Shown here: positions 858-39,611 of the stretch, in pieces | Position numbering within the stretch: position 1 is the first letter of the stretch | Layout of the letters: every line of letters begins with the position of its first letter | DNA from: Marinilabilia rubra | Lineage (GTDB): Bacteria; Bacteroidota; Bacteroidia; Bacteroidales; Marinilabiliaceae | Reading direction: 5' to 3' | Assembly: GCF_003121985.1 (NCBI RefSeq) | Contig: NZ_QEWP01000001.1 | Location: forward strand, 186,001 to 250,000 | DNA: 64,000 nucleotides | Made by a program: the position numbers and the translations under genes | Notes under the pieces: generated by a model | Database searches by the model: none | Seen by the model: only the letters and a program-made list of their open reading frames with translations | What the model was told of the DNA's origin: nothing

Positions 858-896
858 GTGTATTACGAGAAGGTCATACAATCACATGTAATATAT
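858..896. promoter_or_regulatory. Two operator-like palindromes between nagB and the GntR gene
   Basis: GTGTATTACGA (858-868) and ATGTAATATAT (886-896) are degenerate matches to the ATGTAWTACAA palindrome found at other promoters of this island. They lie between the divergent nagB and gntR genes, which suggests regulation of nagB and/or autoregulation. Individually these two sites are weaker than those at namZ and the NlpC gene. Confidence 0.45.
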
Positions 897-947
897 CCTT
901 TAAAAGTAAAAGATTCACCATTCTCTTCAAAAACGGAAGAAAAAATC

Positions 948-955
948 TATATTTG
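948..955 (+). promoter_or_regulatory. Putative -7 element of the GntR gene promoter
   Basis: TATATTTG is an exact match to the Bacteroidota -7 consensus TAnnTTTG. No clear -33 TTTG is visible at the expected distance. It would give a leader of about 240 nt before the gntR start. The rest of 782-1202 is AT-rich non-coding DNA without further features that I can support. Confidence 0.35.
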
Positions 956-1202
956 TATGTTTTTAAGAGCGATTGGCATGTTCTCTTGTTATTGAAATTT
1001 CAAAATTGATTGATTGCCTTTTAACTTCCGGATGTTTGCCTTTCACGCTTTTATCCCCTATTTCCTTCCTTTTGTCAGGGAATCCCGGGGAACAAATGTG
1101 ATGTGGGATTTGAATAATTGGGGCAAACTAGTGGTTTGTTTTGCTGGTTTTTCGCCAATATTGTGTTGAAATTTGTTAGTGTATTCATTTTAATTGTTTT
1201 AG

Positions 1203-1931
1203 ATGGACGATATATTTGGAAAGATAGGAACCACTCAAACTCTGAGTCAGAAGATTGAGAGAAAGATAGAAGAAGCCATTCGGCAGAAAAAACTTCTTTC
1301 CGGGGCCAAGTTGCCTTCTGAAAAAGAACTTTGCGAACTGTTTGGTGTGAGTCGTACTGCTCTCCGTGAGGCATTGCGCCGCCTCAACGCCAGAGGCCTT
1401 ATTGAAATCCGGAAAGGTAGCGGAATGTATGTTTCCGAAATCAAAATAGAGGATGCTGTAAAGTCTCTCAATCTTTACTACGACTTGAGTTTTGATTCCA
1501 ATCTTATTTCTCAGATAATTGATGTTCGACGTATCTTCGAGCCTGAAATTTCCAGGCTTGCTGCCCGCAATCGGACTGATGAGGATTTGAAAATCTTGCA
1601 GGATGGCATCGAAGATCTTGAGAGTTGCGATCCGGATAACACCCAAAAAGAGGTGGATACCATTAACCGTTTTCATATGAGCCTTGCTAAGGCCACCGGT
1701 AATCCTATCATTATCATTAGCCTGGAGCCCATTTATTCTCTTTTGCCAAGAATGCGCAATTTTATTTATGCCAATGTGGAAGGGGAGAAGGAATTTACCA
1801 TCGATGCTCAGAAAAAAATATTGAAAGCGGTAGAAGCCCGGGATGAAGACGCTGCCTTCGCGGAAACTGAAAAGTTGGTTATTCGGAATCACGAGGTTTA
1901 TGACAGGTACCTTAAAAAGGTGCTTAAATAG
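1203..1931 (+). CDS. FadR-subfamily GntR transcriptional regulator (FCD domain)
   Basis: DNA-binding regulator of 242 residues. The N-terminal winged helix-turn-helix (about 12-80) has the typical GntR signature LPSEKELCELFGVSRTALREAL and the wing GLIEIRKGSGMYV. The C-terminal FCD ligand domain (about 95-230) shows RRIFEPEISRLAA and NRFHMSLAKATGNP. In many FCD domains a His precedes the helix at about residue 205 and helps bind metal; here the equivalent stretch reads DAQKKILKAVEARD with Gln, so the metal site may be altered. The gene sits between nagB and murQ. FadR-type regulators bind GT-N3-AC palindromes, and such palindromes lie before several salvage genes here, making this protein the likely local regulator, perhaps sensing a MurNAc derivative. 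The ligand is an inference. Confidence 0.9.
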   Translation: MDDIFGKIGTTQTLSQKIERKIEEAIRQKKLLSGAKLPSEKELCELFGVSRTALREALRRLNARGLIEIRKGSGMYVSEIKIEDAVKSLNLYYDLSFDSNLISQIIDVRRIFEPEISRLAARNRTDEDLKILQDGIEDLESCDPDNTQKEVDTINRFHMSLAKATGNPIIIISLEPIYSLLPRMRNFIYANVEGEKEFTIDAQKKILKAVEARDEDAAFAETEKLVIRNHEVYDRYLKKVLK

Positions 1932-1987
1932 ACCGGTAAAATTCATAATCCAAAGGAGTTTTCAAAATCAAATAAGCTTTTCTCCGT

Positions 1988-2015
1988 GGTCCTCATTTTT
2001 AGAGGACCTTGTTTT
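1988..2015 (+). terminator. Rho-independent terminator after the GntR gene
   Basis: GGTCCTC and GAGGACC form a 7-bp perfect stem with a 7-nt loop, followed by TTGTTTT. It lies 57 bp after the gntR stop codon. Confidence 0.7.
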
Positions 2016-2354: not shown

Positions 2355-3185
2355 CTATTTAGATCTTTTGTAGGCATCGATGGCCTTTTTTACAGAGCCA
2401 TGCTGAATCAATAAGTCTTCGGCATCGTCTTTCTTTAGGCCCAGCTCTTCCATGAGCATTCTGGTTCCACGCTGAATTAATTTTTTGTTGGTCAGTTGCA
2501 TGTTTACCATTTTGTTGCCTTTTACTTTACCCAATTTGATCATTAATGTGGTCGTGATCATATTGAGAATCATTTTTTGGGCCGTTCCGGCTTTTAATCG
2601 TGTGCTTCCCGTAATGAATTCAGGACCGACAATAGCTTCAATGGGAAATTCTGCAGCTTTAGCAATCTCCGATCCCGGATTGCAGGTGATGCATCCGGTC
2701 AAAAGGCCATTAGTTCTGGCATTATCAATCCCCCCAATAACGTAAGGTGTAGTGCCTGAGGCAGCAATGCCGATGACCGTGTCCATCTTATTAATATTAT
2801 ACCCCTTTAGCTCCTCCCAGGCTCTTTGGGGATCATCTTCCGCATCTTCAACAGCTTTGCGTAAAGCAACATCTCCGCCGGCAATCATGCCAATTACCAA
2901 AGTATCAGGCACACCAAAAGTGGGTGGCAATTCAGAGGCATCCAGAACCCCAAGGCGACCACTGGTCCCTGCTCCCAGGTAAAAAACCCTTCCTCCTTTT
3001 TTCATCCTTTCTACAATGCGCACGATCAATTGCTCAATTTGGGGCAGGGCCTTGTTTACGGCTTGATGAACCTTAGCGTCTTCCTGATTGATGCTGTGAA
3101 TCAGGTCGGATACCTCCATCTTTTCAAGATTTTGGAATTTGGAAGGCGATTCAGTTATGCTTAGAGTAAATTTATTATCCGACAT
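2355..3185 (-). CDS. murQ: N-acetylmuramic acid 6-phosphate etherase
   Basis: Cleaves the D-lactyl ether of MurNAc-6-phosphate, giving GlcNAc-6-phosphate and D-lactate in the cytoplasm. The 276-residue protein is close to the usual length of about 300. The SIS sugar-phosphate fold is recognisable from FYLGAGTSGRLGVLDASELPPTFG (residues about 67-90, including the Glu used in catalysis) and from IAASGTTPYVIGG. The C-terminal helical part ends with a UBA-like segment (EELGLKKDDAEDLLIQHG). It is downstream of the kinase gene in the same direction with a 38-bp gap, so the two almost certainly form a murK-murQ operon. Its D-lactate product matches the D-lactate dehydrogenase-type gene at 39723-42566. 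Confidence 0.95.
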   Translation of the reverse strand: MSDNKFTLSITESPSKFQNLEKMEVSDLIHSINQEDAKVHQAVNKALPQIEQLIVRIVERMKKGGRVFYLGAGTSGRLGVLDASELPPTFGVPDTLVIGMIAGGDVALRKAVEDAEDDPQRAWEELKGYNINKMDTVIGIAASGTTPYVIGGIDNARTNGLLTGCITCNPGSEIAKAAEFPIEAIVGPEFITGSTRLKAGTAQKMILNMITTTLMIKLGKVKGNKMVNMQLTNKKLIQRGTRMLMEELGLKKDDAEDLLIQHGSVKKAIDAYKRSK

Positions 3186-3223: not shown

Positions 3224-4060
3224 TTATTTTAGATGGAAATTTATTAAACCATCCATAGGGTCTTTAATAATATTCCCAAGTTTTAATTTGTGCTTTTCCA
3301 GTGCCTTATCAAGCAGATCTCTGAAATAATAAGCAATGCTGCCTGTAAAATGAACCGGGAGTTCCTTTGCCTTCTTGTATTGGAGAACATTTCGTGTTAA
3401 AAAATCATCAAATGACTTTATCACCAGCTCCTGCAGTGCTTGTTCATCTTTGTGTTCAGAAATAAACTTTGTGAAACCTGCGGCATACCTGTTTGGAAAA
3501 GGCTTTTTGTAAATATTTTCCAGTATTTCGGCATAGCTTGTTTTGTATTGGTTGAAAAATGTCTCCTGTATATAGGGAGGCAGTTGGTTTTTAAGGACAT
3601 CGGCCAGCAGTTTTTTTCCTATTACTGCACCGCTGCCTTCATCCCCCAGTATAAAACCCAGAGGTGAAACACTTTCCACAATTTCTTTTCCATTATAATG
3701 ACAGGAATTTGAGCCGGTTCCCAAAATGCAGGCAATTCCTTCAGAGTTTCCGCAGAGGGCGTGAGCAGCAGCCATTAAATCGCTTTCTATTTCAAGTTTC
3801 CCGGTATTGAAAAACTGATCGAGAGCATTGAAGGCCACTTTGCTTATCTCAGGATTGGCGCATCCTGCACTGTAAAAATAAATTGCATCGAACGTTCGTT
3901 CCCCGAAGGTGAACTCATTTTTCAGAGCCTGTACAATGGTGACTTCATCCTGGTAGAAGGGGTTGATTCCGGCTGTTTGGATTATTTCTTTTTTCCCGGA
4001 TTCCTGATTTAAAAGACACCATGTTGTTTTCGTAGATCCACTGTCGGCTATTAAAATCAT
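3224..4060 (-). CDS. murK: N-acetylmuramate / N-acetylglucosamine kinase, BadF/BadG family
   Basis: ATP-dependent sugar kinase of the ASKHA fold, 278 residues. It begins MILIADSGSTKTTW (phosphate-1 loop), has ILGTGSNSCHYNG (phosphate-2 loop) and FILGDEGSGAVIGKKLL, all typical of the GlcNAc-kinase branch of this family. Characterised bacterial relatives called MurK phosphorylate MurNAc and, in some species, GlcNAc. Position directly before murQ favours MurNAc as the main substrate, supplying MurNAc-6-phosphate. A GATGTATTACAAA operator-like palindrome and a TAGCTTTG -7 box lie upstream on the minus strand. Substrate choice between MurNAc and GlcNAc cannot be decided from sequence alone. Confidence 0.85.
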   Translation of the reverse strand: MILIADSGSTKTTWCLLNQESGKKEIIQTAGINPFYQDEVTIVQALKNEFTFGERTFDAIYFYSAGCANPEISKVAFNALDQFFNTGKLEIESDLMAAAHALCGNSEGIACILGTGSNSCHYNGKEIVESVSPLGFILGDEGSGAVIGKKLLADVLKNQLPPYIQETFFNQYKTSYAEILENIYKKPFPNRYAAGFTKFISEHKDEQALQELVIKSFDDFLTRNVLQYKKAKELPVHFTGSIAYYFRDLLDKALEKHKLKLGNIIKDPMDGLINFHLK

Positions 4061-4186
4061 AAGGGAATGATGTATTATATGTTTGGTTTTTAATTTTTAT
4101 TAGTTTCCTGTCTCTGGGCTTTCTTATATTTGTTTTGGCAGATATTTGGGTTTAAAGCTCATGTGATTGCTTGTTTTTTGCCTGTG

Positions 4187-4239
4187 CAAAGCTACAAAAA
4201 AAAGTTTAGTTTTGATATCATATAAGATGTATTACAAAT
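4187..4239 (-). promoter_or_regulatory. Putative murKQ promoter and operator
   Basis: On the minus strand TAGCTTTG (4194-4187) matches the -7 consensus TAnnTTTG. The palindrome ATGTATTACAA (4227-4237 on the plus strand) lies about 32 bp further upstream. A weaker copy, ATGTATTATAT, lies at 4070-4080 close to the start codon. No convincing -33 element was seen at the right distance. Confidence 0.45.
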
Positions 4240-4377
4240 TTTTGTTTGTTGAAAAAATGTTTCTACTTTTGAAAACAGAAATTGACAGTTGTTTGTGATG
4301 AGTTGTTTTTTTGGTGGATAATTTATCATTGTTTTAATTTTATAATGAGTATCCGTTTTTATACCCAACTTGAAAGC

Positions 4378-4593
4378 AGACTCGCCGAAAAGGACGGCCT
4401 TGACCGGTGAGCCAAAAAAACAAGTGAAGATGGCGTTAAAAAATCTTTTCTGTTTGAGCCGATAGGCGAGTTTAAAAGATTTTAGCCATCAAACGCTGTT
4501 TTTTTGAGTGAAGCGGTCACAGCCTTGACTTTTTTTGATTACTTTTTTGTGTCAAGACAAAAAAGTAATTGGGGTTTAAGGGGCAAAGCCCCT
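4378..4593. repeat. Palindromic repeat region upstream of the amidase gene
   Basis: This gene-free block (part of the 845-bp gap 4061-4904) holds nested inverted repeats. GATGGC...AAATCTTTT pairs with AAAAGATTT...GCCATC around 4430-4490, and flanking GCCTTGACCGGTGAG pairs imperfectly with a complementary stretch near 4510-4530. Next comes a perfect 13-bp hairpin, ATTACTTTTTTGT / ACAAAAAAGTAAT (4538-4569), and then AGGGGC-AAA-GCCCCT (4579-4593). No ORF is supported. It looks like a non-autonomous repeat; the remainder of the gap holds nothing that I recognise. Confidence 0.5.
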
Positions 4594-4904
4594 CTATAAT
4601 TTCAATTAGGTAAATAACCGGATATTCCTATAATGGAGTTATTGACCGAAACCCAAATACCTTGTTTGTTAGTTGATTCTGATTTTTGGTTTTGTTTATT
4701 TCTTACTCGGGGATACACAGGCTACCCAACTCTAAACAAGTTACGAGGATGGCTTCTTTGAAGCAACTTTTTTGAGAGATATGTTACAGAGACTGGCTAT
4801 GAAATTAATTTTTTGGCTTTGTCTTTATAGGCAATATGGAGAATTTTATCTTTTTACCATTAAAATCCGCCTGTTAAACCAGGAGGGGTTAATACAAAAA
4901 ACAA

Positions 4905-7900
4905 ATGAAGAGGCTTTTACAGTTTAAGTTTATTTTGATCCTTGGTCTACTGACGATCTATGCAGGAGACGTGTTTTCTCAATCAGGGAAAAGAGATCTG
5001 AGAATTGCAAAAAAGGCCATGGATAAAATTCAGGATGGACCTGACTTATTTAGAAGTTGGCAATACATGGGACAGATGTATGTTGATTCTGTGGCAGCAG
5101 ATGTGACGAATGAAACACTTGCGGTTTTTCTTTCTCCTAATGTTGCGCGTGTTCCTATCCGTGAAGTCTGGATAAATTATATCGAACAATCAATAAAGAA
5201 TCAGATTGGGCGGCGTTTTCGAAAATACAATCTTCAAATGTTTTGTAACGGGAAACCTCTTGAGGAGTTTGTGCCTGTTTATTTTAGGGAATCGCTTCCC
5301 ACTGACACTTTAAGAATTAAAGGGACGGGACTTAGAAAGTCTCTTGTAAAAAGAGCTGATGAACCGTTTTTTGAATCAGGGCTAACCAATAATAATATAG
5401 CCATGTGGGCCAGTCATGGTTATTATTATGAATCGGAACTGGACCGTTGGGAGTGGCAGAGAGCGAGATTGTTTGGTACGGTTGAGGATATTTATCCGTT
5501 TTCATTTACACGCAACTTCCTGGTACCAATGCTTGAAGATGCAGGTGCTAGTGTTTTTCTGCCCCGCGAAAGAGATACACAGACCAATGAGGTTATCGTA
5601 GATAATGATGGATCTTCTGAAGGAAGTGAGTTAATAATAGAGAATGGAGTCCGTGAAATAGTGAGTTCTTCTGAAAAAGGATTCTGTATGAAGGATACTT
5701 TATTTAAAGGTGAAAATCCTTTTCAAATGGGAACCTTCCTGCAAGTCCATCCTTCTTCAGAAAATTCTTCAAATATCACCTATTTACCAAATATACCTGA
5801 AGATGGCGAGTATGCTGTTTATGTTTCCTATGGAAAAGTGGAGGGTGCCCTTAACAATGTGCCATACCGTGTGAATCATTCCGGAGGAACGACCCGTTAT
5901 TTTATTAATCAGCAAATGGGATATGGAACCTGGGTATACCTGGGAACCTTTTACTTTAAGAAGGGCAAGAATGCAAAGACGGGATCCTTAGAAATTGAGG
6001 TTCCGTACAAAGCATCAGGAATTGTCACCACCGATGCCGTTCGCTTTGGTGGTGGAATGGGCAATGTTGCCAGACGCCCGGAGGATTCCTATATTAAAAG
6101 AAAATGGTCTCTGAACGATCATCAGCAGCAGAACTCGGAAGTTGATTTAAGCGATTCTGTTACCTATACTCCTAAGTTGAGCGGAAAGCCACGCTGGATG
6201 GAAGCCGGCAGGTACCGGATGCAGTATGCAGGTGTACCTGATACCATCGTTTACAGTTTGAACGATAACAAAAATGATTACAACGACGATTATCAGTCAC
6301 GGGGGGAATGGGTGAACTATCTTATGGGCAATCCTAACGGGCCTTCAAAAGCACCTGGAACTCCCGGATTGAATATTCCTGTTGATCTTGCTTTTGCATT
6401 TCATACAGATGCCGGGACTACACCTGGTGATTCGGTTATCGGAACACTTGGTATATACAGCTCGGTTACCAACGATGGCCAATTTCCTGATGGAAAATCC
6501 CGCCTTGCCAGCCGGGATCTTACCGATGTGATTCAATCTCAGATTGTATCCGATGTCAGATTGACCTTCGACGATGAATGGACCCGCCGGGCTATGTGGG
6601 ACAAACAGTATTCAGAAGCGTATAGGCCAAATGTGCCCACCATGTTGTTGGAATTGTTGTCGCATCAAAATCTGGCTGATATGAAATACGGACTTGATCC
6701 GCGTTTTAAATTTACTGTGTCCAGAGCCATTTATAAAGGGATGGTGCGCTTCCTGTCAGCGCGTGAAGGGCGCCGGGCGGTTATAAAACCTCTGGCTCCC
6801 GATCATCTCTCTCTCATTCAGGTTGAAGGCAAAAAGCTGAGGTTAAGCTGGAACCCGGTGGAAGATCCCCTAGAGGAGAGCGCTGTGCCTTCAGGATATA
6901 AGGTGTATCAAAGAATTGAAGACAATGGTTTTGACAATGGCTTTTTTACTACTGATACCACAATGGTTATTGAACTCCCCGAATGGGGAACCATATACAG
7001 CTTCAAAGTGACCGCTCTGAACGATGGGGGCGAAAGCATGGCCGGAGAAACCCTGTCGGTATCTCTTCAGTCCGATTCTAATGATTTGGTGTTGGTAGTC
7101 AATGGCTTCGATCGTGTGGCCCCTCCTTCTTTTGTGGATGGAGAAACTGCCGGAGTAGCATGGTGGGATGATGAAGGAGTGCCATGGCACAGAGATATGA
7201 GCCACACGGGCAAACAATACGATTATGACCGTTCCTCCCCATGGCTTGATGATGATAGCCCGGGGCATGGAGCCAGTTATGCAGATATGGAAGGTAAAAT
7301 CATTCCCGGTAATAACTTCGACTTTGTGTTTACACACGGAAAAGCCATTCGCGATGCCGGTTATTCATTTGTTTCGGTAAGTGATGAAGTTTTTGCCTCC
7401 AATGGGTTTGAGGTTGAACCTTACAAGGCTGTTGATTTGCTTTATGGCGAAGAGAGAGGGACCGAACCTCTATTTCAATCAGGCGAAAAACAATACAGAC
7501 TTTTTAGCCCGGAAACAAGGGAGACATTGAAAAAATATCTTTTGTCCGGAGGAAATATTCTGGTTTCGGGAGCTTATATTGGTACCGATGCCGCAGAGAA
7601 CAAAGACACTGCCACAATTGAATTTTTAAAAGAATTTTTGCACTACCGGTGGATGACCAATCATGCTGACAATGTGGGAAATCTGAAAGTGACAGATGAA
7701 GCTTCTGCATTGTTCCTGCCATCGCTCAGCTATAATGTAGAATATCATCCCGATATTTATAAAGTTGAATCGCCCGACGGCATTGAGCCTGTGGGAGATG
7801 ATGCTTTCAGGATTTACAGGTACGAAAGCAACAATACCTGCGCAGGAGTTGGCTTTTCAGGCCATTATCAAAGTGTAATCCTTGGGTTTCCTTTTGAAGC

Positions 7901-7973
7901 CATTGCATCAGAAAAGGAGAGGGCTGAATTGATGAAACAGGTCTTACAGTTTTTTCAGAATGAGAATAAATAA
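4905..7973 (+). CDS. Exported Amidase_3-fold protein with golvesin/xanthan-lyase-like insertion and FnIII domain
   Basis: A 1022-residue protein with an N-terminal signal peptide (hydrophobic 8-20, GDVFSQ cleavage region). Homologues are usually labelled xanthan lyase after the golvesin-C-like beta domain seen here at about 265-385. That domain interrupts a zinc N-acetylmuramoyl-L-alanine amidase pattern: WASHGYYYE (H171), GASVFLPRERDT (matching the V-x-TR-x-D strand), FAFHTDAG (H500) and TMLLELLSHQN (E583, the catalytic Glu position). A fibronectin III domain follows (about 630-725), then a roughly 290-residue C-terminal domain of unknown role. The reading as amidase is from motif order and not from a search. 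It opens the plus-strand salvage operon and would free stem peptides from glycan strands, leaving denuded glycans that suit the SpoIID and GHL10 proteins downstream. Confidence 0.7.
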   Translation: MKRLLQFKFILILGLLTIYAGDVFSQSGKRDLRIAKKAMDKIQDGPDLFRSWQYMGQMYVDSVAADVTNETLAVFLSPNVARVPIREVWINYIEQSIKNQIGRRFRKYNLQMFCNGKPLEEFVPVYFRESLPTDTLRIKGTGLRKSLVKRADEPFFESGLTNNNIAMWASHGYYYESELDRWEWQRARLFGTVEDIYPFSFTRNFLVPMLEDAGASVFLPRERDTQTNEVIVDNDGSSEGSELIIENGVREIVSSSEKGFCMKDTLFKGENPFQMGTFLQVHPSSENSSNITYLPNIPEDGEYAVYVSYGKVEGALNNVPYRVNHSGGTTRYFINQQMGYGTWVYLGTFYFKKGKNAKTGSLEIEVPYKASGIVTTDAVRFGGGMGNVARRPEDSYIKRKWSLNDHQQQNSEVDLSDSVTYTPKLSGKPRWMEAGRYRMQYAGVPDTIVYSLNDNKNDYNDDYQSRGEWVNYLMGNPNGPSKAPGTPGLNIPVDLAFAFHTDAGTTPGDSVIGTLGIYSSVTNDGQFPDGKSRLASRDLTDVIQSQIVSDVRLTFDDEWTRRAMWDKQYSEAYRPNVPTMLLELLSHQNLADMKYGLDPRFKFTVSRAIYKGMVRFLSAREGRRAVIKPLAPDHLSLIQVEGKKLRLSWNPVEDPLEESAVPSGYKVYQRIEDNGFDNGFFTTDTTMVIELPEWGTIYSFKVTALNDGGESMAGETLSVSLQSDSNDLVLVVNGFDRVAPPSFVDGETAGVAWWDDEGVPWHRDMSHTGKQYDYDRSSPWLDDDSPGHGASYADMEGKIIPGNNFDFVFTHGKAIRDAGYSFVSVSDEVFASNGFEVEPYKAVDLLYGEERGTEPLFQSGEKQYRLFSPETRETLKKYLLSGGNILVSGAYIGTDAAENKDTATIEFLKEFLHYRWMTNHADNVGNLKVTDEASALFLPSLSYNVEYHPDIYKVESPDGIEPVGDDAFRIYRYESNNTCAGVGFSGHYQSVILGFPFEAIASEKERAELMKQVLQFFQNENK

Positions 7974-7993
7974 AAACGATAAAAAATCAGGAT

Positions 7994-9466
7994 ATGCATA
8001 ACAAAATTTCATGTTTTTTGCCGGTTGCCGAACCGGCCGATCTTAAGCAAACCATTGATGAACTAAAAGCAGTTGATCTGGTCGACGGAATTTATGTAAT
8101 GATCACCCCTGGAAGTAAGGGCGCAGAGTTGCCGGAAGGTGTTGACTCATTTGAAGTGCCGGCCCTTAACTCCACTCAGATGGTGAAAGAAATAGCAAAA
8201 AGGGGTGAGACATCCACGCATGTTTTGCTGTATACCAAATCGCTTCCTCTGAAATTGGGTGCATTGTCGTTGGAGCGCATGGTTCAGGCGGCTGAATATA
8301 CCGGGGCAGGAATGATTTACTCCGATTATTTTGCATTGAAGGAAGGTAAAATGATACAAAATCCGGTAATTGATTATCAGGACGGGAGTTTGAGAGACGA
8401 TTTCAACTTTGGTTCTTTGCTGTTTTTCCCTTCTGAAGCGGTTAAAGAAGCCGCAGGCAAAATGAAGGCCGATTATAAATTTGCGGGACTGTATGACCTT
8501 CGACTCAAAGTCTCTCAGAATCTTAAGCTCTTCCGTTTGCCGGAATTTCTATATACCGAAATGGAAACGGATACACGTAAATCAGGCGAAAAGATTTTCG
8601 ACTATGTGGACCCTAAAAACCGGGAGGTTCAGATTGAAATGGAAGTTGCCTGTACCGAGCATCTAAAAGCCATTGGCGGATATCTTAAGCCGGAATTTGA
8701 AGAAGTGAAATTTGATGAATCGGATTTTCCGGTGGAGGCCTCAGTCGTAGTTCCGGTGCGAAACCGTGCCAAAACCATCGAAGATGCGGTAAGGTCTGTT
8801 TTTAATCAGAATACTTCATTCAAATTCAATTTGATCATTGTCGACAACCACTCGGATGACGGAACTACAGAAATTTTGAAGAAACTGGCCGGTGAAGACA
8901 ATCGTTTGATTCATGTTATTCCCGATCGCAAAGACCTTGGCATTGGGGGCTGCTGGAATATGGCTATTATGAATGAATCCTGTGGTAAGTTTGCCATCCA
9001 ACTCGACAGCGACGATTTATATGCTGATGATTCAGTTGTTCAGACCATCGTCGATGCTTTCTATGAACAAAACTGTGCCATGGTGATCGGCTCTTATCAG
9101 ATGGTGAATTTCAAACTGGAAGAGATTCCTCCGGGATTGATCGACCACAAAGAATGGACGCCTGACAATGGGCGAAACAACGCTTTGCGCATCAATGGAT
9201 TGGGCGCTCCACGTGCATTCTACACACCTGTATTGAGAGAAATCCGGGTGCCTAACGTGAGCTATGGAGAAGACTACGCCGTAGGATTGGCCATTTCCAG
9301 AGATTATCAAATCGGACGGATTTACCAATCTTTATACATGTGCCGTCGTTGGGATGATAACTCAGATGCTTCTTTAGATATTGCAAAAATGAACAACCAT
9401 AATTTATACAAAGACAGGGTGAGAACCATGGAATTGTGGGCTCGCATTGCTAAAAACAAAAAGTAG
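7994..9466 (+). CDS. Cytoplasmic two-domain GT2-like glycosyltransferase
   Basis: 490 residues without signal peptide or membrane segment. The C-terminal half (about 250-490) is a GT-A family 2 domain: ASVVVPVRNRAKTIEDAVRSV, IIVDNHSDDGT, and the metal/nucleotide-binding IQLDSDD, followed by SYGEDYAVGLAI in the acceptor region. The N-terminal half (about 1-240) resembles a degenerate GT-A fold (MIYSDYF, FNFGSLLFF), so the protein may be a tandem of an inactive and an active domain. It lies 20 bp after the amidase gene and only 2 bp before the DUF4922 gene, so translation is probably coupled. Donor and acceptor are unknown. Its constant company with DUF4922 and SpoIID proteins here suggests work on cell-wall sugars, which is inference. 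Confidence 0.75.
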   Translation: MHNKISCFLPVAEPADLKQTIDELKAVDLVDGIYVMITPGSKGAELPEGVDSFEVPALNSTQMVKEIAKRGETSTHVLLYTKSLPLKLGALSLERMVQAAEYTGAGMIYSDYFALKEGKMIQNPVIDYQDGSLRDDFNFGSLLFFPSEAVKEAAGKMKADYKFAGLYDLRLKVSQNLKLFRLPEFLYTEMETDTRKSGEKIFDYVDPKNREVQIEMEVACTEHLKAIGGYLKPEFEEVKFDESDFPVEASVVVPVRNRAKTIEDAVRSVFNQNTSFKFNLIIVDNHSDDGTTEILKKLAGEDNRLIHVIPDRKDLGIGGCWNMAIMNESCGKFAIQLDSDDLYADDSVVQTIVDAFYEQNCAMVIGSYQMVNFKLEEIPPGLIDHKEWTPDNGRNNALRINGLGAPRAFYTPVLREIRVPNVSYGEDYAVGLAISRDYQIGRIYQSLYMCRRWDDNSDASLDIAKMNNHNLYKDRVRTMELWARIAKNKK

Positions 9467-9468
9467 TT

Positions 9469-10434
9469 ATGTCGAATGATGTTTCCATGAATACCTCTTT
9501 ACAGGAAAAAGTTGATCACCTGATTGATGAACAGGTGGTCAACTGGCCAATGGCTAAACCCAATTATGAAGGGCTTAAGCAGGTTAAAATCCGTTCCCTG
9601 GAGTTTGGGCCGGCCACCGAGATGAGAGTGCAGTTCAATCCTGCACGTATACGGTCTTCGGCTGCTAAAGTGGATGCAAAATCCATTCAGGAGCGGAAAT
9701 GTTTTCTGTGTGAAGATAATCTGCCTCAGGAACAAAAAAAGGTGCCGTTCCGGGATGATTATCTGATTTTGGTAAATCCTTTCCCAATATTTCCAAGGCA
9801 TCTCACCATCCCTCATGTGAGACATACCGATCAGCGGATCAAAGGGCGATTGTCCGATATGATGATGCTGGCCCGGGAGCTTCCTGAATTTGTTGTGTTT
9901 TACAATGGCCCCAGATGTGGTGCCAGTGCCCCCGATCATTTTCACTTTCAGGCCGGAAACAAAGGTTTTATGCCAATTGAGAAGGAGTTCCGGTTCCATC
10001 CGCGAAAGTCGTTATTGATTGATCACAAGGGTGTACGTGTTTTCTGTGTCGAAAACTACCTGCGCAAGACACTGGTGTTTGAAGGAGAGCAACCCGATGA
10101 AATCGAGTGCTGGTTCAACCGGGTATACCGTTTTCTGGATACCATTCAACGAAATGGAGAGGAACCGATGCTTAACATTTTGTGCTCATGGGAAAATGGC
10201 ACCTGGCGTTTGATTGTTTTTCCCCGTCAGGGACACCGTCCCCGTCAGTTTTTTGCTGAGGGCGAAGAAAAAATTGTGTTGAGTCCGGCTTCAGTAGATT
10301 TTGGAGGAGTACTGATAACCCCCAGAGAAGAAGATTTCAATAAACTCAATACCGATCTTGTAAAAGACATCTTTGACCAGGTTACACTGAATAAGCATGA
10401 TTGGGAATTGGTAAAGAAAATATTTCAAGAATAA
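9469..10434 (+). CDS. DUF4922 protein, HIT/GalT-superfamily nucleotidyltransferase or phosphorylase
   Basis: 321 residues, no signal peptide. A single CFLC pair (78-81) precedes LVNPFPIFPRHLTIP, then YNGPRCGASAPDHFHFQAG, where HFHFQ (157-161) is the H-x-H-x-Q active-site triad of the GalT/Ap4A-phosphorylase branch of the HIT superfamily. The HFHFQA form and the later pair RLIVFPRQ and GVLITPREEDF also recall plant VTC2 and animal GDPGP1, which phosphorolyse GDP-hexoses. A nucleotide-sugar phosphorylase or nucleotidyltransferase role is therefore likely, with unknown sugar. It is sandwiched by the glycosyltransferase (2 bp) and the SpoIID gene (12 bp). The domain is annotated only as DUF4922 as far as I know. 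Confidence 0.7.
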   Translation: MSNDVSMNTSLQEKVDHLIDEQVVNWPMAKPNYEGLKQVKIRSLEFGPATEMRVQFNPARIRSSAAKVDAKSIQERKCFLCEDNLPQEQKKVPFRDDYLILVNPFPIFPRHLTIPHVRHTDQRIKGRLSDMMMLARELPEFVVFYNGPRCGASAPDHFHFQAGNKGFMPIEKEFRFHPRKSLLIDHKGVRVFCVENYLRKTLVFEGEQPDEIECWFNRVYRFLDTIQRNGEEPMLNILCSWENGTWRLIVFPRQGHRPRQFFAEGEEKIVLSPASVDFGGVLITPREEDFNKLNTDLVKDIFDQVTLNKHDWELVKKIFQE

Positions 10435-10446
10435 AATCTGAATAGT

Positions 10447-11781
10447 ATGCAACCAAATATAGAAGTAGGGGTGCTTTTTGCTCCCGAATTTTCTTTTACT
10501 TTGAATGGGGCTTATAAATTAAAAGCTACAGGTGAGGTGGTTGAGGGCGAAGGAGAAGCTCTTCTGAAGGATGGGGTCATTGCGATTATGATTAATGGCC
10601 AGGCCATCTCATCTGATTTTCCGGTGGAATTTGAGCCTGTGAATTATGAAGAAGCCGGTTTTGAATTGAAAGATGTGGTGATTGGCATCAATTTTCACTG
10701 GGAGCGGAAAGAAGACCAGCGGTTCAAGGGAACACTAAGAATCATCAGTGAGGATGGGCACCTGACAGCTGTTAACCGTTTACCTCTGGAAGATTACTTA
10801 ATAAGTGTGATTTCATCGGAGATGAGTGCCACTTCTTCACCTCAGCTGCTGAGGGCCCATGCGGTGATCTCACGGAGCTGGTTGATGGCTCAGAAAGAAA
10901 AGGAGCAAAAACTGAAAGAAACAGGCAATTACGAAACCGTCATTGAAAGTGAGGGTGAAAAGATTAAGTGGTACGATCGTGAGGATCACATCAACTTCGA
11001 TGTGTGTGCCGATGATCACTGCCAAAGATATCAGGGTATTACTAGAGCCTCTACAAAAGAAGTGGAGGCGGCCATTGCTGACACGTTCGGAGAAGTTTTG
11101 ACCTACAATAATGAGATTTGTGATGCCCGGTTTTCAAAAGCTTGCGGTGGCATTGCAGAGGTTTTTGAGAATGTTTGGGAGCCGGTCAATCATCCCTACC
11201 TTACCAAGGTGATCGACAATGACTTTACACCGGAAGGATTCAGTTTGGATTTAAAGCAGGAGGATGCAGCGAATGACTGGATCACCGGAAATCCCCCGGC
11301 TTTCTGTAACACACAAGATAAAGAGGTGCTGGCACAGGTGCTCAACGACTACGATCAGGAAACTGCCGATTTTTACCGATGGAAAGTGACGTTGGAACAG
11401 GATGATGTGAAGCGACTATTGAAAAAGAAGATTGATTTGGAACTGGGCGATATCATCGATATGATTCCGGTTGAGCGAGGCGAATCCGGTCGTTTGATTC
11501 GTCTCAGGATTGTCGGAACCAAAGGAGGGCTGATCATCGGCAAAGAACTGGAAATCCGTAAAGCTCTGTCAGAATCTCACCTTTACAGTTCTGCTTTTGT
11601 GGTTGAAAAAGAAGCTGGTGAAGGAGATATTCCGAAGTCATTTACTCTGTTTGGTGCCGGTTGGGGCCATGGTGTTGGGTTATGCCAGATAGGAGCAGCC
11701 GTAATGGGAGCCAAAGGTTATTCTTATCAGGAGATTTTGAATCATTATTTCAGAGGGGCTGAATTGGAAAAACGTTATTGA
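10447..11781 (+). CDS. SpoIID/LytB-domain protein without signal peptide
   Basis: 444 residues. The SpoIID domain is clear: LPLEDYLISVISSEM (112-126, with the Glu that is catalytic in SpoIID) followed by RAHAVISRSWL, then FSKACGG, and the C-terminal GAGWGHGVGLCQIGAAVMGAKGY. SpoIID proteins cut glycan strands lacking stem peptides as lytic transglycosylases. Unusually, the protein starts MQPNIEVGVLFAPEF with no signal sequence, and the preceding stop codon is only 12 bp away, so a missed leader is unlikely. It contains an extra acidic segment between about 155 and 200 relative to the Bacillus enzyme. Either it acts in the cytoplasm on imported glycan pieces or it leaves the cell by a non-classical route. 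Confidence 0.85.
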   Translation: MQPNIEVGVLFAPEFSFTLNGAYKLKATGEVVEGEGEALLKDGVIAIMINGQAISSDFPVEFEPVNYEEAGFELKDVVIGINFHWERKEDQRFKGTLRIISEDGHLTAVNRLPLEDYLISVISSEMSATSSPQLLRAHAVISRSWLMAQKEKEQKLKETGNYETVIESEGEKIKWYDREDHINFDVCADDHCQRYQGITRASTKEVEAAIADTFGEVLTYNNEICDARFSKACGGIAEVFENVWEPVNHPYLTKVIDNDFTPEGFSLDLKQEDAANDWITGNPPAFCNTQDKEVLAQVLNDYDQETADFYRWKVTLEQDDVKRLLKKKIDLELGDIIDMIPVERGESGRLIRLRIVGTKGGLIIGKELEIRKALSESHLYSSAFVVEKEAGEGDIPKSFTLFGAGWGHGVGLCQIGAAVMGAKGYSYQEILNHYFRGAELEKRY

Positions 11782-13883: not shown

Positions 13884-13945
13884 AAGGCTGAGACTGAGGT
13901 TAAGGCTAAGATAACTCTCGATCTTAATCTCAACCTCAGTCTCAA
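13884..13945. repeat. Intergenic inverted repeat
   Basis: GCTGAGACTGAGGTTAAG is followed about 25 bp later by its near complement (CTTAATCTCAACCTCAGTCTCAAC), giving an imperfect hairpin between the AmpG-like and GHL10 genes. Similar GAGGTT/AAGGTT-based low-complexity sequence recurs at 15508-15540 and 15650-15680. Confidence 0.55.
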
Positions 13946-23492: not shown

Positions 23493-23577
23493 TTGTTTTT
23501 GTGACGAGTTCGTTGTAGGTTTGTAATATGTAATACAACAAACAAAAGTATGCAAAGTTTTTGAATTTTTAATACAA
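23493..23577. promoter_or_regulatory. Face-to-face promoters of namZ and the transglutaminase gene with shared operator
   Basis: Plus strand: TTG (23493-23495), 20-bp spacer, TAGGTTTG (23516-23523), leading to the gene at 23582. Minus strand: TTG (23577-23575), 24-bp spacer, TACTTTTG (23550-23543), leading to namZ. Both -7 boxes match TAnnTTTG. Exactly between them lies ATGTAATACAA (23528-23538), within the longer TTGTAATATGTAATACAA. A repressor bound there would cover both transcription starts. Confidence 0.65.
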
Positions 23578-25118: not shown

Positions 25119-25214
25119 AACATGTAATACATGTTATGTGGTATAAAAAGTTGAAAATTTGTTTGGATTTTGAAATCTTAACATTATTTTTGAAGTCTGT
25201 AAGATGTAATACAA
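25119..25214 (+). promoter_or_regulatory. Promoter and two operators of the NlpC-epimerase pair
   Basis: TTTG (25162-25165), a 19-bp spacer and TATTTTTG (25185-25192) form a textbook Bacteroidota promoter. ATGTAATACAA (25204-25214) lies just after the expected start site. A perfect 17-bp palindrome, AACATGTA-A-TACATGTT (25119-25135), lies about 70 bp upstream of the start site. Both share the ATGTAWTACAW core. Confidence 0.7.
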
Positions 25215-25241
25215 GAATATATACTAGTAGCAAAGTTCTGT

Positions 25242-26405
25242 ATGGATGTTTTAAAATTTGTAATAATTGTCTCCCTTTTATTTGCATTTACGCAATGCAA
25301 GAATGATGAGATAATGGATGATGAGATCTCCCGGTTTAGGGTTGAACATGTGGGAGACTTGCGGGAACAGGTTTTTAGCATCTCCCCTGAGCGGGTTGGA
25401 GGAATGACTTATATATTGCATGGAGAGCTGGATGACGATGCTTTAAAAGGGCGCTTGCTTTCCGAACTTAAGCAAAAAGGTTTTAAAATTCAGGACAGTA
25501 TCAAGGTTCTTCCGATGGGAGTGCCAGAACTTCATGCACTGGTTGAATTGAGTGTGACTACTATTAGATCTTCGCCTTCTCACACAAGTTCAATGCTGAG
25601 TCAGGCACTAATGGGAACGCCTGTAAAGGTTCTGAAAAAAGAGGGTGGCTGGGTTTTTATTCAGACTCCTGATAAATATCTGGGGTGGTGTGAAGCCGGT
25701 TCTATTCATTATATGAACAAGCAGGAATGGAACACCTGGAAAAGTGCCGGGAGGGTGATGGTAATTGAAAGGAGTAAAAACCTGAAAGATTTATCAGGCG
25801 AACATGTGGTAAGAGATCTTGTGGCCGGTAATATATTGGAAGTTATGGACAAAGCACCAGGTGGTTTTGTTGTGGAAACCCCTGATGGAAAGGTGGGTGT
25901 TGTTGAAGAAAGTCAGGTCGTTCCATTTAAGGAATCCACCTTCTCTGTTCCGGTAGATATTCAGAAGGTTAAGGCGGATGCCCTGGATTTATTGGGAACT
26001 CCTTACTTATGGGGAGGAACTTCTGTCAGGGCCCTTGACTGCAGCGGGTTTACAAAGACTGTTTATCAAATGAACGGGGTTATTTTAGCCAGAGATGCCT
26101 CCTTGCAGGCTCGTCATGGAGAGGCTGTGCAGGTTGATGAGGGGTGGCAAGGATTCGACATTGGTGATCTGCTTTTCTTCGCCCCCAATGAGAACAGTGA
26201 ACGGATTACTCATGTGGGGCTTTATATTGGAGACTCTGAGTTTATACATGAAGCCGGAAGGGTAAAAATAAACAGTCTTGATAGTACCAGAGCCAACTAC
26301 AGCGATTACAGAGAACGTACACTGAAACAGGTTCGACGCATCCGGGGCATGGAAGACTCTGAGGGAATAATACCCATGTTGGAACACCCCTGGTATGTTA
26401 ATTAA
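25242..26405 (+). CDS. NlpC/P60 endopeptidase with SH3 domains (YkfC-like lipoprotein)
   Basis: 387 residues with a short lipoprotein-type leader (FVIIVSLLFAFTQC). SH3b-like segments occupy about 100-230 (MGTPVKVLKKEGGWVFIQTPDKYLGW is one recognisable stretch, ending in a Trp-Cys-Glu motif). The NlpC/P60 domain (about 245-375) has LDCSGFT (C267), THVGLYIGD (H324) and FIHEAG (H336), the complete triad. Bacillus YkfC of this architecture cuts after gamma-D-Glu to release L-Ala-D-Glu. The next gene, a dipeptide epimerase, uses exactly that product; YkfC and the epimerase YkfB are also neighbours in Bacillus. Here the protein is likely anchored in the cell envelope. Confidence 0.9.
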   Translation: MDVLKFVIIVSLLFAFTQCKNDEIMDDEISRFRVEHVGDLREQVFSISPERVGGMTYILHGELDDDALKGRLLSELKQKGFKIQDSIKVLPMGVPELHALVELSVTTIRSSPSHTSSMLSQALMGTPVKVLKKEGGWVFIQTPDKYLGWCEAGSIHYMNKQEWNTWKSAGRVMVIERSKNLKDLSGEHVVRDLVAGNILEVMDKAPGGFVVETPDGKVGVVEESQVVPFKESTFSVPVDIQKVKADALDLLGTPYLWGGTSVRALDCSGFTKTVYQMNGVILARDASLQARHGEAVQVDEGWQGFDIGDLLFFAPNENSERITHVGLYIGDSEFIHEAGRVKINSLDSTRANYSDYRERTLKQVRRIRGMEDSEGIIPMLEHPWYVN

Positions 26406-26417: not shown

Positions 26418-27563
26418 ATGAAGCTTATTAAAAACAGAAGAGACTTTATTAAGGTGGCAGGGATGCTGGCCGGATCTGCTTTTATGGTACCCACGTTGGC
26501 AGGATGTCAGCAGACAGCAAATAAAAAAACAACAACAGGAGGGAAGTCAATGGTTCTAAGATTCAAGCCTTACGAATTGCAATTGAAACACGTTTTTACC
26601 GTAGCTGCCGGTAGCAGAACAACAACTCCGGTTATGCTTACCGAAATTGAGTATGACGGAATTATTGGTTACGGGGAAGCGTCTATGCCTCCATATCTGG
26701 GTGAGAGTCATGAATCGGTACGAAAATTTCTTTCAAAAGTTGATCTGTCCCGCTTTAAAGATCCGTTTTTAATGGAAGATATACTGAATTATGTGGATCA
26801 GATTGCTTCCGGGAATTATGCTGCCAAAGCTTCCGTGGATATTGCCCTTCACGATTTGGTCGGGAAACTGATGGGGCAGCCCTGGTACCGCATTTGGGGA
26901 CTGAATCCTGCCGAAACGCCCGATACTTCTTTCACTATTGGAATTGATAAGCCCGAAGTGGTAAAGGAGAAAACGCGGGAGGCTGCCCCATACAATATAT
27001 TAAAAGTCAAGCTTGGAGGTGGCAACGACCAGGAAATGATTCAGTCGGTAAGGTCGGTAACTGACAAACCCATTTGTGTGGATGTCAATCAGGGATGGAA
27101 AGATCGCCGTGAAGCCCTTGACCTGATTCACTGGCTTAAGGAAGAAGGTGTGGTGTTTGTGGAACAGCCCATGCCCAAAACCGCTATTGACGATCTGGCC
27201 TGGCTGGCCGCTGAAAGTCCGCTGCCAATAGTGGCTGATGAAGCACTTCAAACTGTTGACGATGTGCGTAAAGCATACGGACTCTACAATGGTATCAATA
27301 TAAAGCTAATGAAATGTGGCGGTATGAGGGCGGCCCATCAAATGGCGCTCACAGCCAAATCTCTTGGTATGAAAGTTATGTTTGGATGTATGACCGAAAC
27401 TTCCTGTGCCGTTACTGCTGCAGCCCAACTCTCCCCCATGGCCCATTGGGCCGATCTGGATGGAAATCTCCTGATTAGTAATGATGTTTTTAATGGTTTG
27501 AAAGTGGTGGATGGCAGAATTGTCTTGCCTGATCGGCCCGGTATTGGGGTGGTGGAAAGTTAA
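26418..27563 (+). CDS. Dipeptide (L-Ala-D/L-Glu) epimerase with Tat and lipoprotein signal
   Basis: Enolase-superfamily epimerase of 381 residues that converts L-Ala-D-Glu to L-Ala-L-Glu so that ordinary peptidases can finish it. Landmarks: ILKVKLGGG (K196-x-K198 catalytic pair), ICVDVNQGW, VFVEQPM, IVADEAL (metal ligands Asp, Glu, Asp), NIKLMKCGG (second catalytic Lys) and FGCMTETSC. The N-terminus NRRDFIKVAGMLAGSAFMVP with LAGC at 27-30 is a twin-arginine signal with lipobox, so the enzyme should be exported folded and membrane-anchored. Known relatives YcjG and YkfB are cytoplasmic. It lies 12 bp after the NlpC gene and shares its operator-controlled promoter. Confidence 0.9.
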   Translation: MKLIKNRRDFIKVAGMLAGSAFMVPTLAGCQQTANKKTTTGGKSMVLRFKPYELQLKHVFTVAAGSRTTTPVMLTEIEYDGIIGYGEASMPPYLGESHESVRKFLSKVDLSRFKDPFLMEDILNYVDQIASGNYAAKASVDIALHDLVGKLMGQPWYRIWGLNPAETPDTSFTIGIDKPEVVKEKTREAAPYNILKVKLGGGNDQEMIQSVRSVTDKPICVDVNQGWKDRREALDLIHWLKEEGVVFVEQPMPKTAIDDLAWLAAESPLPIVADEALQTVDDVRKAYGLYNGINIKLMKCGGMRAAHQMALTAKSLGMKVMFGCMTETSCAVTAAAQLSPMAHWADLDGNLLISNDVFNGLKVVDGRIVLPDRPGIGVVES

Positions 27564-37815: not shown

Positions 37816-37826
37816 ATGACACAATT

Positions 37827-39512
37827 ATGAAATTAAAATATTTTCTTTCGATATTCATTTTTATGGTCATCATTGTTGGGTGTACCGATAAATTTGAAAA
37901 AATAAACACCAGGCCTGATGTTTTCTATAGTGATGAGGTTAGTGGGAAGTTCTTTTTAACTAATCCTCAATATAGATTGTTTGCTCCTGATCGTTTTCCT
38001 TATTGGCGGGCTCATTTAATTCATGCTGATCGTTATGCAGGACATTTCACTTTCGGACACAACAGCAGTTGGTGGAGCGACGAACTCGGATATTCTTACA
38101 GCGCTGGTTATACCGATGCCGCGTGGGGTTGGCTGGAAGGCTACCTGGGGGGGCTTGATAATTTTATGAAGTTAACCGAAAACGGGGGTGAATTTGAAAA
38201 TGAACATATGTATGCAATGGGTCTTATAATGAAGGGCTTGTATTATCAGATGTTTACAGATGTTTTTGGCATGATCCCTTATTCTCAGGCAGCAGATCCG
38301 GATATAGTGACTCCTGAATTTGATTCCCAGAAGGTTATTTATAAAGGAATTATAGCAGATCTGGAAGAGGCTATGTCAATAATTGGAGATGCCGAAAGAA
38401 CAGGTGTTGGCGTTGATGATGTTGGTGATAATGATCTTTACTATAATGGAGATCTTCAAAAATGGAAAAAACTTGCAAATACACTAAAGCTTCGAATTGC
38501 TTTGCGAGCCTATGGTGCAGAGGGCGATGATTTTTCTGAAACCGCCATTAATGAGGCTTTAAGTGCACCTTTGCTGGCTACCGTGGATGATAATTGTTTA
38601 ATGGAGAAAGATGCCGAAATTTCTCAATGGGGTAGCGCAGCTTACGGAGATGTTTGGCATAGCTTTGGTGCCGGGTCAGATTGGACTGTCAGTAAGCCTT
38701 TGGTAGATTATCTTCGTAATGAGGACGATCCCAGACTATCAAAATATGTTAAGCCAGCTGAAGGGGGAACTGCCAAATTTGTAAAACCTGAAGGTTCTGA
38801 AGGAGATTTATTTTTGGACAGAGTGAATTTTATTTTGGATGAGCTAAATCAGGCCGGTGTAAGTTATGATCGCGAGGATATTGCCGATACCGTTACTGTC
38901 AATGTTGCTCCAGCAACTTATTACGTTGGCCAGCCGGTCCGGATTAATTCAAATACATATCCATATGTGGAGTATGATTTTTTCTCAACACCTGCGGATA
39001 TTGTCATTCAGCAAAAAAATCAGGGGGAAGATATTTTTCCGGAAATTGTTTTGCAAACAGCTGAATCTTACTTCCTTCAGGCCGAAGCTGCTGTCAGAGG
39101 GCTTGGTTCAGGGGATGCCAATTTCCTATATCAGGAAGGGATTCGTCAGGCAATGGCTGTTTGGGAAATCTCTTCAGCTCAGGCTGATACTTATATAGCA
39201 AATTCTGAGCTGGGATCTTTGACAGGATCTGTTGATGAGCAACTGGAGAAAATTGCCATTCAAAGGTGGATTGCAGCATATACCGATGGCTTTGAAGCAT
39301 GGGCTGTGGTGCGTGATTTTGGTTATCCTTCTTCTTTGGCTGATGGGGTATCTGATCCTGATATTTATGGGCTTGGAGATATTAACGGTCGTTACCCTCA
39401 GAGGATGAGATATGGAAATGATGCTTGGAATAAAAATGGAGCTAATACGCAAGCTGCCGTTGATATTCAGGGCCCCGACGTGCAAGACACCAAACTTTGG
39501 TGGGCTAAGTGA
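37827..39512 (+). CDS. SusD-like (SusD_2 type) lipoprotein
   Basis: 561 residues with lipoprotein signal (FIFMVIIVGC, Cys about 19). The start DKFEKINTRPDVF and features such as YQMFTDVFGMIPYSQA, NGDLQKWKKLANTLKLRIALRAYG and a C-terminal AAYTDGFEAWAVVRDFGYP mark the SusD_2 branch usually paired with DEVVVTALG-type SusC proteins. It should cap the 34717-37815 transporter at the cell surface. A long insertion around 325-375 (DRVNFILDELNQAGVSYDRE onward) is not typical of short family members. The transcription unit ends at a clear terminator. Confidence 0.92.
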   Translation: MKLKYFLSIFIFMVIIVGCTDKFEKINTRPDVFYSDEVSGKFFLTNPQYRLFAPDRFPYWRAHLIHADRYAGHFTFGHNSSWWSDELGYSYSAGYTDAAWGWLEGYLGGLDNFMKLTENGGEFENEHMYAMGLIMKGLYYQMFTDVFGMIPYSQAADPDIVTPEFDSQKVIYKGIIADLEEAMSIIGDAERTGVGVDDVGDNDLYYNGDLQKWKKLANTLKLRIALRAYGAEGDDFSETAINEALSAPLLATVDDNCLMEKDAEISQWGSAAYGDVWHSFGAGSDWTVSKPLVDYLRNEDDPRLSKYVKPAEGGTAKFVKPEGSEGDLFLDRVNFILDELNQAGVSYDREDIADTVTVNVAPATYYVGQPVRINSNTYPYVEYDFFSTPADIVIQQKNQGEDIFPEIVLQTAESYFLQAEAAVRGLGSGDANFLYQEGIRQAMAVWEISSAQADTYIANSELGSLTGSVDEQLEKIAIQRWIAAYTDGFEAWAVVRDFGYPSSLADGVSDPDIYGLGDINGRYPQRMRYGNDAWNKNGANTQAAVDIQGPDVQDTKLWWAK

Positions 39513-39536
39513 GTTAAAACAATAATTTATTTGATT

Positions 39537-39565
39537 GAGCTGTCCCCTGGGGCAGCTCTTTTTTT
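39537..39565 (+). terminator. Rho-independent terminator after the second susD
   Basis: GAGCTG-t-CCCC and GGGG-CAGCTC pair into a 10-bp stem with one bulged base, followed by seven T residues. Clear intrinsic terminator 25 bp after the stop codon. Confidence 0.85.
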
Positions 39566-39580
39566 GAAGTAGAAAATAAA

Positions 39581-39611
39581 TTGTATAGTTGTAATATGTA
39601 TTATATATTTG
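39581..39611 (+). promoter_or_regulatory. Promoter of the D-lactate dehydrogenase-type gene with operator-like site
   Basis: TTG (39581-39583), 20-bp spacer and TATATTTG (39604-39611) match the Bacteroidota consensus. ATGTATTATAT (39596-39606) overlaps the -7 box, and the longer TTGTAATATGTATTA shares 12 of its first 12 bases with the namZ operator region (TTGTAATATGTA). Confidence 0.55.

Follow-up and report, generated by a model that had tools for sequence, protein, structure and literature searches.

MurR is an RpiR/SIS-type protein, and LldR is a lactate-responsive member of the FadR subfamily of GntR regulators. Among the described systems closest to the one considered here, MurR of Escherichia coli represses murQP when N-acetylmuramic acid 6-phosphate (MurNAc-6-P) is absent (PMC5061867), and the hybrid two-component system GppX controls the murT/murK/murQ/ampG peptidoglycan operon of Tannerella forsythia (PMC7670621). 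Within the GntR family, NanR of E. coli is an FCD-type sialic-acid repressor (PMC8012715), AusR of Zobellia galactanivorans is a repressor of alginate genes (PMC8286568) and 2di3 is a GntR-family protein named as LldR of Corynebacterium glutamicum (PMC4494728); the same source, a 2015 survey of FadR-subfamily regulons, has none for Bacteroidetes (PMC4494728). Our study reports on a peptidoglycan-salvage cluster in a 64,000-nt stretch of the Marinilabilia rubra genome (contig NZ_QEWP01000001.1, positions 186,001-250,000; hereafter the window), in which the GntR protein encoded at 1203-1931 very probably governs a peptidoglycan-salvage regulon through a palindromic operator.

The palindromic sites are real and conserved, and the putative regulon would represent a new job for a known protein family. 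We propose a model in which a dimer of the GntR protein would bind an A/T-rich palindrome, roughly AANATGTAWTACATNTT, and would control genes for the extracytoplasmic breakdown of peptidoglycan (NamZ, NlpC/P60, transglutaminase and the golvN operon), for later steps (peptide epimerase, MurNAc kinase and etherase, glucosamine-6-phosphate deaminase) and for an oxidase for which the D-lactate set free by MurQ could serve as substrate. At nagB, namZ, transglutaminase, NlpC and dld the operator lies over the predicted start or the -7 box and would cause repression; NlpC would be subject to two-operator repression, with the operators 82 bp apart around the promoter, and a carboxylated MurNAc derivative would release the repressor. 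The assignment of targets is strong for murK/golvN, NlpC and namZ/transglutaminase and fair for nagB and dld. "Operator" denotes throughout a predicted palindromic site, scored with a 17-nt symmetric matrix, that we infer to be bound by the GntR protein.

The protein combines an N-terminal GntR winged helix (PF00392, 77.2 bits; cut-off 27) with a C-terminal FCD effector domain (PF07729, 67.1 bits; cut-off 24.3). Pfam found these two domains only, with no SIS domain, and the best NCBIfam profile was that of the NanR subfamily, at 123.5 bits under its cut-off of 260. A preliminary description of this DNA had presented a FadR-subfamily GntR protein with an operator of the expected type, and both parts are borne out: the domains are those of the subfamily, and ATGTAWTACAT has GT and AC 3 nt apart. 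The operator type given for the subfamily is NyGTM-N0-1-KACNy (PMC4494728).

The exact sequence ATGTAWTACAA, previously placed at three sites, is present at 4227, 23528 and 25204, and the palindrome claimed at 25119-25135 is perfect (8+1+8). The weaker forms listed at 858, 886, 4070 and 39596 all exist, with two mismatches; the 886 site is weak when taken alone, and that at 858-868 was rejected as an operator, its best score being -5.7 with the retrained matrix. When up to two mismatches are allowed the window contains 72 matches, where shuffled sequences gave 46.3 +/- 6.1 and at most 60; for the 17-mer with up to three mismatches 5 matches were counted, spread over 4 places, and 0.20 were expected. 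The whole genome (5.38 Mb) has 11 copies of ATGTAWTACAA, 3 of them in the window, and 3 copies of the reversed control pattern. ATGTAWTACAW occurs 18 times, with 4 in the window, which makes up 1.2% of the genome (binomial p 5e-5, for a pattern picked after seeing the window). All 4 of these window sites are intergenic, against 4 of the 14 elsewhere, where reading frames of at least 100 amino acids are called mechanically; with a 90-residue limit the 4224 site falls inside a 98-residue frame between murK and golvN, which we judged spurious. Looser patterns were of little use (WTRTMWKAYAW, 328 versus 240 for the reversed control; TTGTMWKACAA, 17 versus 13).

Two scoring matrices were built. The first was derived from the murK promoters of relatives only, with the window excluded (12 loci, whose 12 sites reduce to 5 distinct ones; the search left out L057, the same record as L040, and L039, L042 and L043, L numbers being our handles for loci and G numbers those for genomes). 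The second, retrained matrix rests on 29 17-mers from relatives, two of them reverse complements of each other, and the background sample was 240 kb of the same genome in 12 hand-chosen stretches, of which 11 are on contig C1 and the twelfth is on C12. With the first matrix the five best window sites, at 4224, 25119, 23525, 25201 and 39593 in descending order from 20.0 to 14.6, all stand before salvage genes; the site at 4067 ties for sixth place, at 13.2, with a site in a susC-like gene at 36322, and the background sample contains 1 match scoring 14 or more. With the second matrix six window sites score between 15.3 and 22.3 and the next scores 9.5; the best match in the background sample scores 14.7. 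Two candidates before the GHL10 gene were not counted: that at 13944 scored 11.1 with the first matrix and 6.7 with the second, and that at 13975 scored 8.9 and 6.1. Matrices with permuted columns served poorly as a control, since noise prevails at low thresholds: 2 of 60 reached the window count at score 10, and at score 8 it was reached by 5 of 60. Only high-scoring sites were therefore used. Overall, the matrix and genome counts show that the palindrome is not equally common in unrelated intergenic DNA.

Conservation carries most of the weight of the evidence. The regulator's closest named relatives share 92 to 88% identity with it and belong to Marinilabilia, Thermophagus and Anaerophaga, and 16 of 60 relatives carry an orthologue at 58% or more. 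The order GntR-murQ-murK with a divergent golvN was found again in 10 of the 16 homologue loci analysed (L044-L059; L060, at 33% over 87 residues, was left out), and L051 has this order too, with three inserted genes. The murK/golvN operator is retained in loci where that region is whole, and lies at -46 of golvN in all 12 golvN-bearing loci examined, window included. For a negative control we took 24 same-order genomes that have murQ and lack a GntR orthologue; 18 were scanned, and in none of these 18 murQ loci does any site in the intergenic DNA next to murK/murQ reach a score of 10.

At the NlpC promoter, which was read in the 20 of 29 fetched relatives' loci with the better protein matches, an operator of 13 or more is present in 10 of 12 genomes with the regulator and in 1 of 8 without it (Fisher p 0.0045, with kinship ignored), this last being G162. 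The matrix scan of relatives with and without the orthologue, suggested in the preliminary description, thus finds that operator presence tracks the regulator. Two strong NlpC operators occur in seven genomes including our own, spaced by exactly 82 bp in all; the pair bounds a conserved 99-bp block, and the DNA lying between the two operators has a mean identity of 0.81 versus 0.36 and 0.38 outside (7 genomes).

The transglutaminase operator scores 14.3 or more in 4 of 6 near-full-length orthologues from genomes with the regulator, gene fragments in G151, G152 and G177 being excluded. The 886 site scores only 8.2, yet it lies about 3 nt from the predicted nagB start, and the nagB-like gene is preceded by stronger counterparts elsewhere, scoring 15.4 in Thermophagus, 15.1 in Anaerophaga and 11.1 in Marinilabilia sp. 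L045. The dld family itself tracks the regulator, being present in 13 of 16 genomes with it versus 4 of 44 others as counted (G158 was scored absent though its gene is in two pieces on two contigs, so that 14 of 16 is fairer, and the G015 copy, scored present, has stops).

Conservation at orthologous genes, expected wherever relatives keep the regulator, is therefore found overall at several salvage promoters and fails in G072, G007, G010 and G164. These failures and several other observations weigh against the proposed regulon. G007 and G010 have NlpC genes without the operator, the transglutaminase operator is missing in G164 and G010, and G072 has no operator at murK, all with the regulator present. 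Among the 12 genomes where NlpC has an operator, five show one strong site only, and the NlpC comparison is confounded by distance, as the proteins from genomes without the regulator, except that of G162, are only 34-40% identical. At dld, sites of 10.5 or more occur in 5 of 13 genomes with the regulator (G151, G152, G167, G007 and G010; G164 was not readable), and three of these sites are close to background at 10.7-11.1, the G010 site scoring 20.0. The murK test is partly circular because the first matrix was derived from murK sites and the letters at 4224 (and, for the second matrix, at 25119) are identical to those of relatives' training sites; in addition, the control murK L104 holds a 10.3 match within its reading frame. 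Finally, G162 has NlpC, transglutaminase and murK operators, and a dld site too, without a GntR orthologue. Its murQ contig stops 385 bp past murQ, and an assembly gap is only possible as an explanation, because the regulator of G177, which belongs to the same genus, is sited away from murQ.

Two of these genomes show further sites. In G072 (L039, position 3994) a SusC/SusD-like pair precedes the regulator gene, and its susC carries a 16.5 operator while murK has none; the target of the regulon may have shifted there. In G010 a 16.6 operator-like site precedes a PorP/SprF gene at the end of a contig (L092, position 7948).

The position of the operators bears on how the protein would act. The Bacteroidota promoter is described as TTTG/TAnnTTTG (PMC7366714), and starts were predicted on the assumption that they lie about 6 nt after the -7 box. 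Operator centres are then predicted at about +3 (nagB, namZ, transglutaminase), at +10 and -72 (NlpC) and on a -7 box (dld), a geometry that would fit repression at all five genes; no clear -33 box is seen at namZ or murK, and a second -7 box is on offer at dld and at golvN of the window. The operator shared by murK and golvN lies at -52 to -57 in the murK direction in the same 12 loci (-52 in the window), and the TAnnTTTG promoter of golvN has TTTG 19 nt upstream in 11 loci and ATTG at 20 in L051. The -52/-46 position is not that usual for a plain repressor, and the murK/golvN arrangement would fit looped repression or activation alike. FadR itself activates fabA, and a dual regulator that represses nagB, namZ, transglutaminase, NlpC and dld and activates golvN and murK from -46 and -52 is a possibility worth keeping, though we consider it the less probable course. 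In its favour is the recurrence of these positions in 12 of 12 loci, and three points stand on the other side: the second operator, close to the murK start codon, might allow repression by looping; the starts are only predicted, and another perfect -7 box in the window would put the operator at +11; and the short distance perhaps simply left insertions no room. No loop-phase rule is proposed for murK, as loci that have both murK operators differ in the distance between them (136 to 157 bp). The distal operators at murK/golvN and NlpC are each abutted by a second palindrome (Table 1). The element TTATRTGRTATMAAA, centred 13 bp from the operator, has 2 copies in the 0.80 Mb scanned, both abutting these distal operators, and was seen in 8 of 26 relative loci scanned.

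A regulator other than the local GntR protein, which would then be merely a neighbour, might read the operators. The genome encodes a paralogous FadR-type GntR protein on contig C23 (L147, about 216169-216785), and upstream of that gene, which diverges from a susC-like gene, lies a similar palindrome (ATGTATGACAT; CTTATGTATGACATAAT ahead of the start), a further point against an exclusive role of the window protein. This paralogue may cross-bind the operators, or perhaps serves a second local regulon with a similar operator; however, it is only 32% identical to the window regulator, its site differs in the centre, and operator presence tracks the local orthologue, as the NlpC counts indicate. 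The Calditrichia homologue of the local protein (42%, L059 about 9971-10812), which lies beside kduI, oligoalginate-lyase-like and SDR genes, has the same operator before its own gene (19.5) and before the next gene, kduI (20.1). Because the operator is the same while the target genes differ, this case links the motif to the protein family rather than to the pathway, and control by another regulator appears improbable. The same homologue, in another phylum, bears on the suggestion that the palindrome is conserved as part of a promoter or for structural reasons and not as an operator. Most sites do lie within 20 nt of a predicted start, but their positions range from -72 to +105, and the palindrome is absent at orthologous promoters in most genomes without the regulator, which leaves very little probability for this explanation.

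Within the phylum, homologues at 31-43% identity were found in 30 of 394 other genomes (E 1e-20). In five of 11 distant homologue loci a site scores at least 14; it precedes the regulator gene in one, lies at the start of that gene in another and follows shortly after it in three. The motif is thus shared but not universal among distant homologues; the 6 loci without a site, including the two beside 2-keto-3-deoxygluconate (KDG)-kinase-like and SDR genes, count against the proposed regulon. Elsewhere in our genome a strong operator-like site (16.5) at C16:6328-6344 (L125) lies between LamG-domain and Gfo/Idh/MocA oxidoreductase genes, 5 kb from another GntR gene.

For the GntR regulator, NanR offers a guide to the ligand. 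The NanR ligand is held by a salt bridge from Arg128 and by a Zn ion on Asp172, His176, His222 and His244 (PMC8012715). R109 of the window protein aligns with Arg128 and is invariant in all rows read; because this includes the paralogue, it is weak evidence for an acid ligand. At the Zn positions the window protein has I154, H158 and Q203 and no His at the fourth, so that three of four ligands are replaced. Of 20 rows of the peptidoglycan clade, 5 keep the complete Zn set, as do all 9 outer homologues read; the window protein and 14 others have lost it. In a midpoint-rooted tree, built without L274, L278 and L279 (correct frame not read) and without the near copies L046 and L055, the rows that lost it form one group (support 100/99), and the metal site thus seems to have been lost once. 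Our guess for the ligand is a carboxylated MurNAc derivative. First comes MurNAc-6-P, at about even chances, since it is pathway-specific and acidic. Free or anhydro-MurNAc is a distinctly weaker guess, and D-lactate, an LldR-type ligand, is weaker still because it would be an ambiguous signal if the cell meets lactate from elsewhere.

A fuller account would run as follows, although we regard it as doubtful in its entirety. An alginate-type, metal-dependent FCD regulator would have turned, in a Bacteroidota lineage, into a metal-free MurNAc-6-P sensor that commands the path from wall cutting to D-lactate burning; it would repress from start-site operators and from a fixed 82-bp pair, and activate murK/golvN from -46/-52, through composite operators of two palindromes 13 bp apart.

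The genes and sites are collected in Table 1 (golvN and dld are names used here). Also in the cluster are a GHL10 gene, an AmpG-like transporter that scores 174 bits, under its cut-off, and gene pairs recognised by eye as SusC/SusD-like. The nagB-like neighbour gene in Thermophagus L047 matches NF002557 (glucosamine-6-phosphate deaminase-like) at 1008 bits. The dld protein reaches no NCBIfam cut-off, and D-lactate is its putative substrate. An Rfam scan of window positions 1-43000 gave no RNA family at gathering threshold. A long intergenic stretch at 4320-4620 contains an inverted repeat, ATTACTTTTTTG...CAAAAAAGTAAT, near 4539-4573, with the look, by eye, of a dispersed repeat. In two same-order genomes MurK-like and MurQ parts are fused in a protein of 553-554 residues (L040 4130-5794 and L041 11333-12994).

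Table 1. Genes and predicted sites of the salvage cluster, in window coordinates; paired scores are those of the first and second matrix.
Feature	Position	Strand	Basis or remarks
nagB-like glucosamine-6-phosphate deaminase (gene start; continues beyond window)	1..781	-	open reading frame; identity by eye
weak nagB operator	883..899	.	7.4 and 8.2; centre about +3 of predicted start
GntR/FCD (FadR-subfamily) regulator, 242 residues	1203..1931	+	Pfam, NCBIfam
murQ, MurNAc-6-phosphate etherase	2355..3185	-	TIGR00274 319 bits, above cut-off 302
murK-like BadF-family kinase	3224..4060	-	Pfam BcrAD_BadFG 36 bits; upstream of murQ in relatives
murK-proximal operator, immediately before murK start codon	4067..4083	.	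13.2 and 15.3
second palindrome TTATATGATATC..., abutting shared murK/golvN operator	4211..4225	-	
operator common to divergent murK and golvN promoters	4224..4240	.	20.0 and 21.8; -46 golvN, -52 murK
golvN, golvesin-C/fn3 protein, first gene of divergent operon	4905..7973	+	Pfam Golvesin_C; conserved gene order
GT2, DUF4922 and SpoIID genes, same putative operon as golvN	7994..11781	+	Pfam; gene order kept in relatives
namZ, exo-beta-N-acetylmuramidase	22179..23402	-	Pfam NamZ_N 289 bits, NamZ_C 138.5 bits
operator between face-to-face namZ and transglutaminase promoters	23525..23541	.	16.5 and 18.4; about +3 of both
transglutaminase-like protein	23582..25036	+	Pfam Transglut_core
NlpC distal operator, perfect palindrome	25119..25135	.	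18.8 and 22.3; about -72
second palindrome TTATGTGGTATAAAA, abutting NlpC distal operator	25134..25148	+	
NlpC proximal operator	25201..25217	.	16.3 and 18.8; about +10
NlpC/P60 peptidase	25242..26405	+	Pfam NLPC_P60 75 bits
dipeptide-epimerase-type enolase-superfamily protein	26418..27563	+	Pfam MR_MLE_C; NCBIfam DgcA and Ala-Glu epimerase matches below cut-offs
dld operator, overlapping -7 box TATATTTG	39593..39609	.	14.6 and 15.7; second, poorer box would give +3
dld, FAD/Fe-S D-lactate-dehydrogenase-type oxidoreductase, 947 residues	39723..42566	+	Pfam FAD_binding_4, FAD-oxidase_C, 4Fe-4S, CCG

The preliminary description had held that no such regulator was described in Bacteroidota. This stands for GntR proteins, as no GntR regulon for peptidoglycan salvage in Bacteroidota was found in the literature searched, most subscription papers being outside reach, and the available parts of PMC5507952, PMC13204101, PMC6448482 and PMC3878776 contain no such regulon; it does not stand more widely, since the T. 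forsythia system is known. AusR resembles the window protein as proposed here in being a Bacteroidota GntR repressor of a glycan-use pathway, and homologues 37-43% identical to the window protein share the SRT..RE core of the recognition helix; two of them lie between KDG-kinase-like and SDR genes. These homologues may be AusR orthologues, the two KDG-linked ones looking AusR-like by eye. The window regulator differs in that it would serve peptidoglycan and not alginate, with murQ, murK and nagB as neighbours; it stands outside the homologues with alginate/KDG neighbours, in a separate clade (100/99, midpoint root), and has lost metal-site residues, and the two KDG-linked loci are without such an operator. 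NanR is the best profile match, with the same domains and a ligand Arg that corresponds to R109, and both ligands would be N-acetylated sugar acids; however, NanR binds (GGTATA)3 direct repeats and Zn, whereas the window operator is a palindrome of 11-17 nt and three of four Zn ligands are replaced. LldR shares the subfamily, and D-lactate is a product of the window pathway, but the target genes differ.

In its logic the locus is closer to MurR, which likewise exerts pathway-specific one-component control of murQ genes; the window protein is of the GntR/FCD type without a SIS domain, and its putative regulon is wider. If the model is true, the D-lactate produced by MurQ is tied to a co-occurring, partly co-controlled dehydrogenase family, and exact operators together with their regulator are now available for bench work. 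GppX likewise controls a salvage operon in Bacteroidota, as a two-component hybrid and not a one-component regulator, and the locus would thus provide a defined one-component regulon for peptidoglycan use in a phylum where the described regulator that we found is the two-component GppX.

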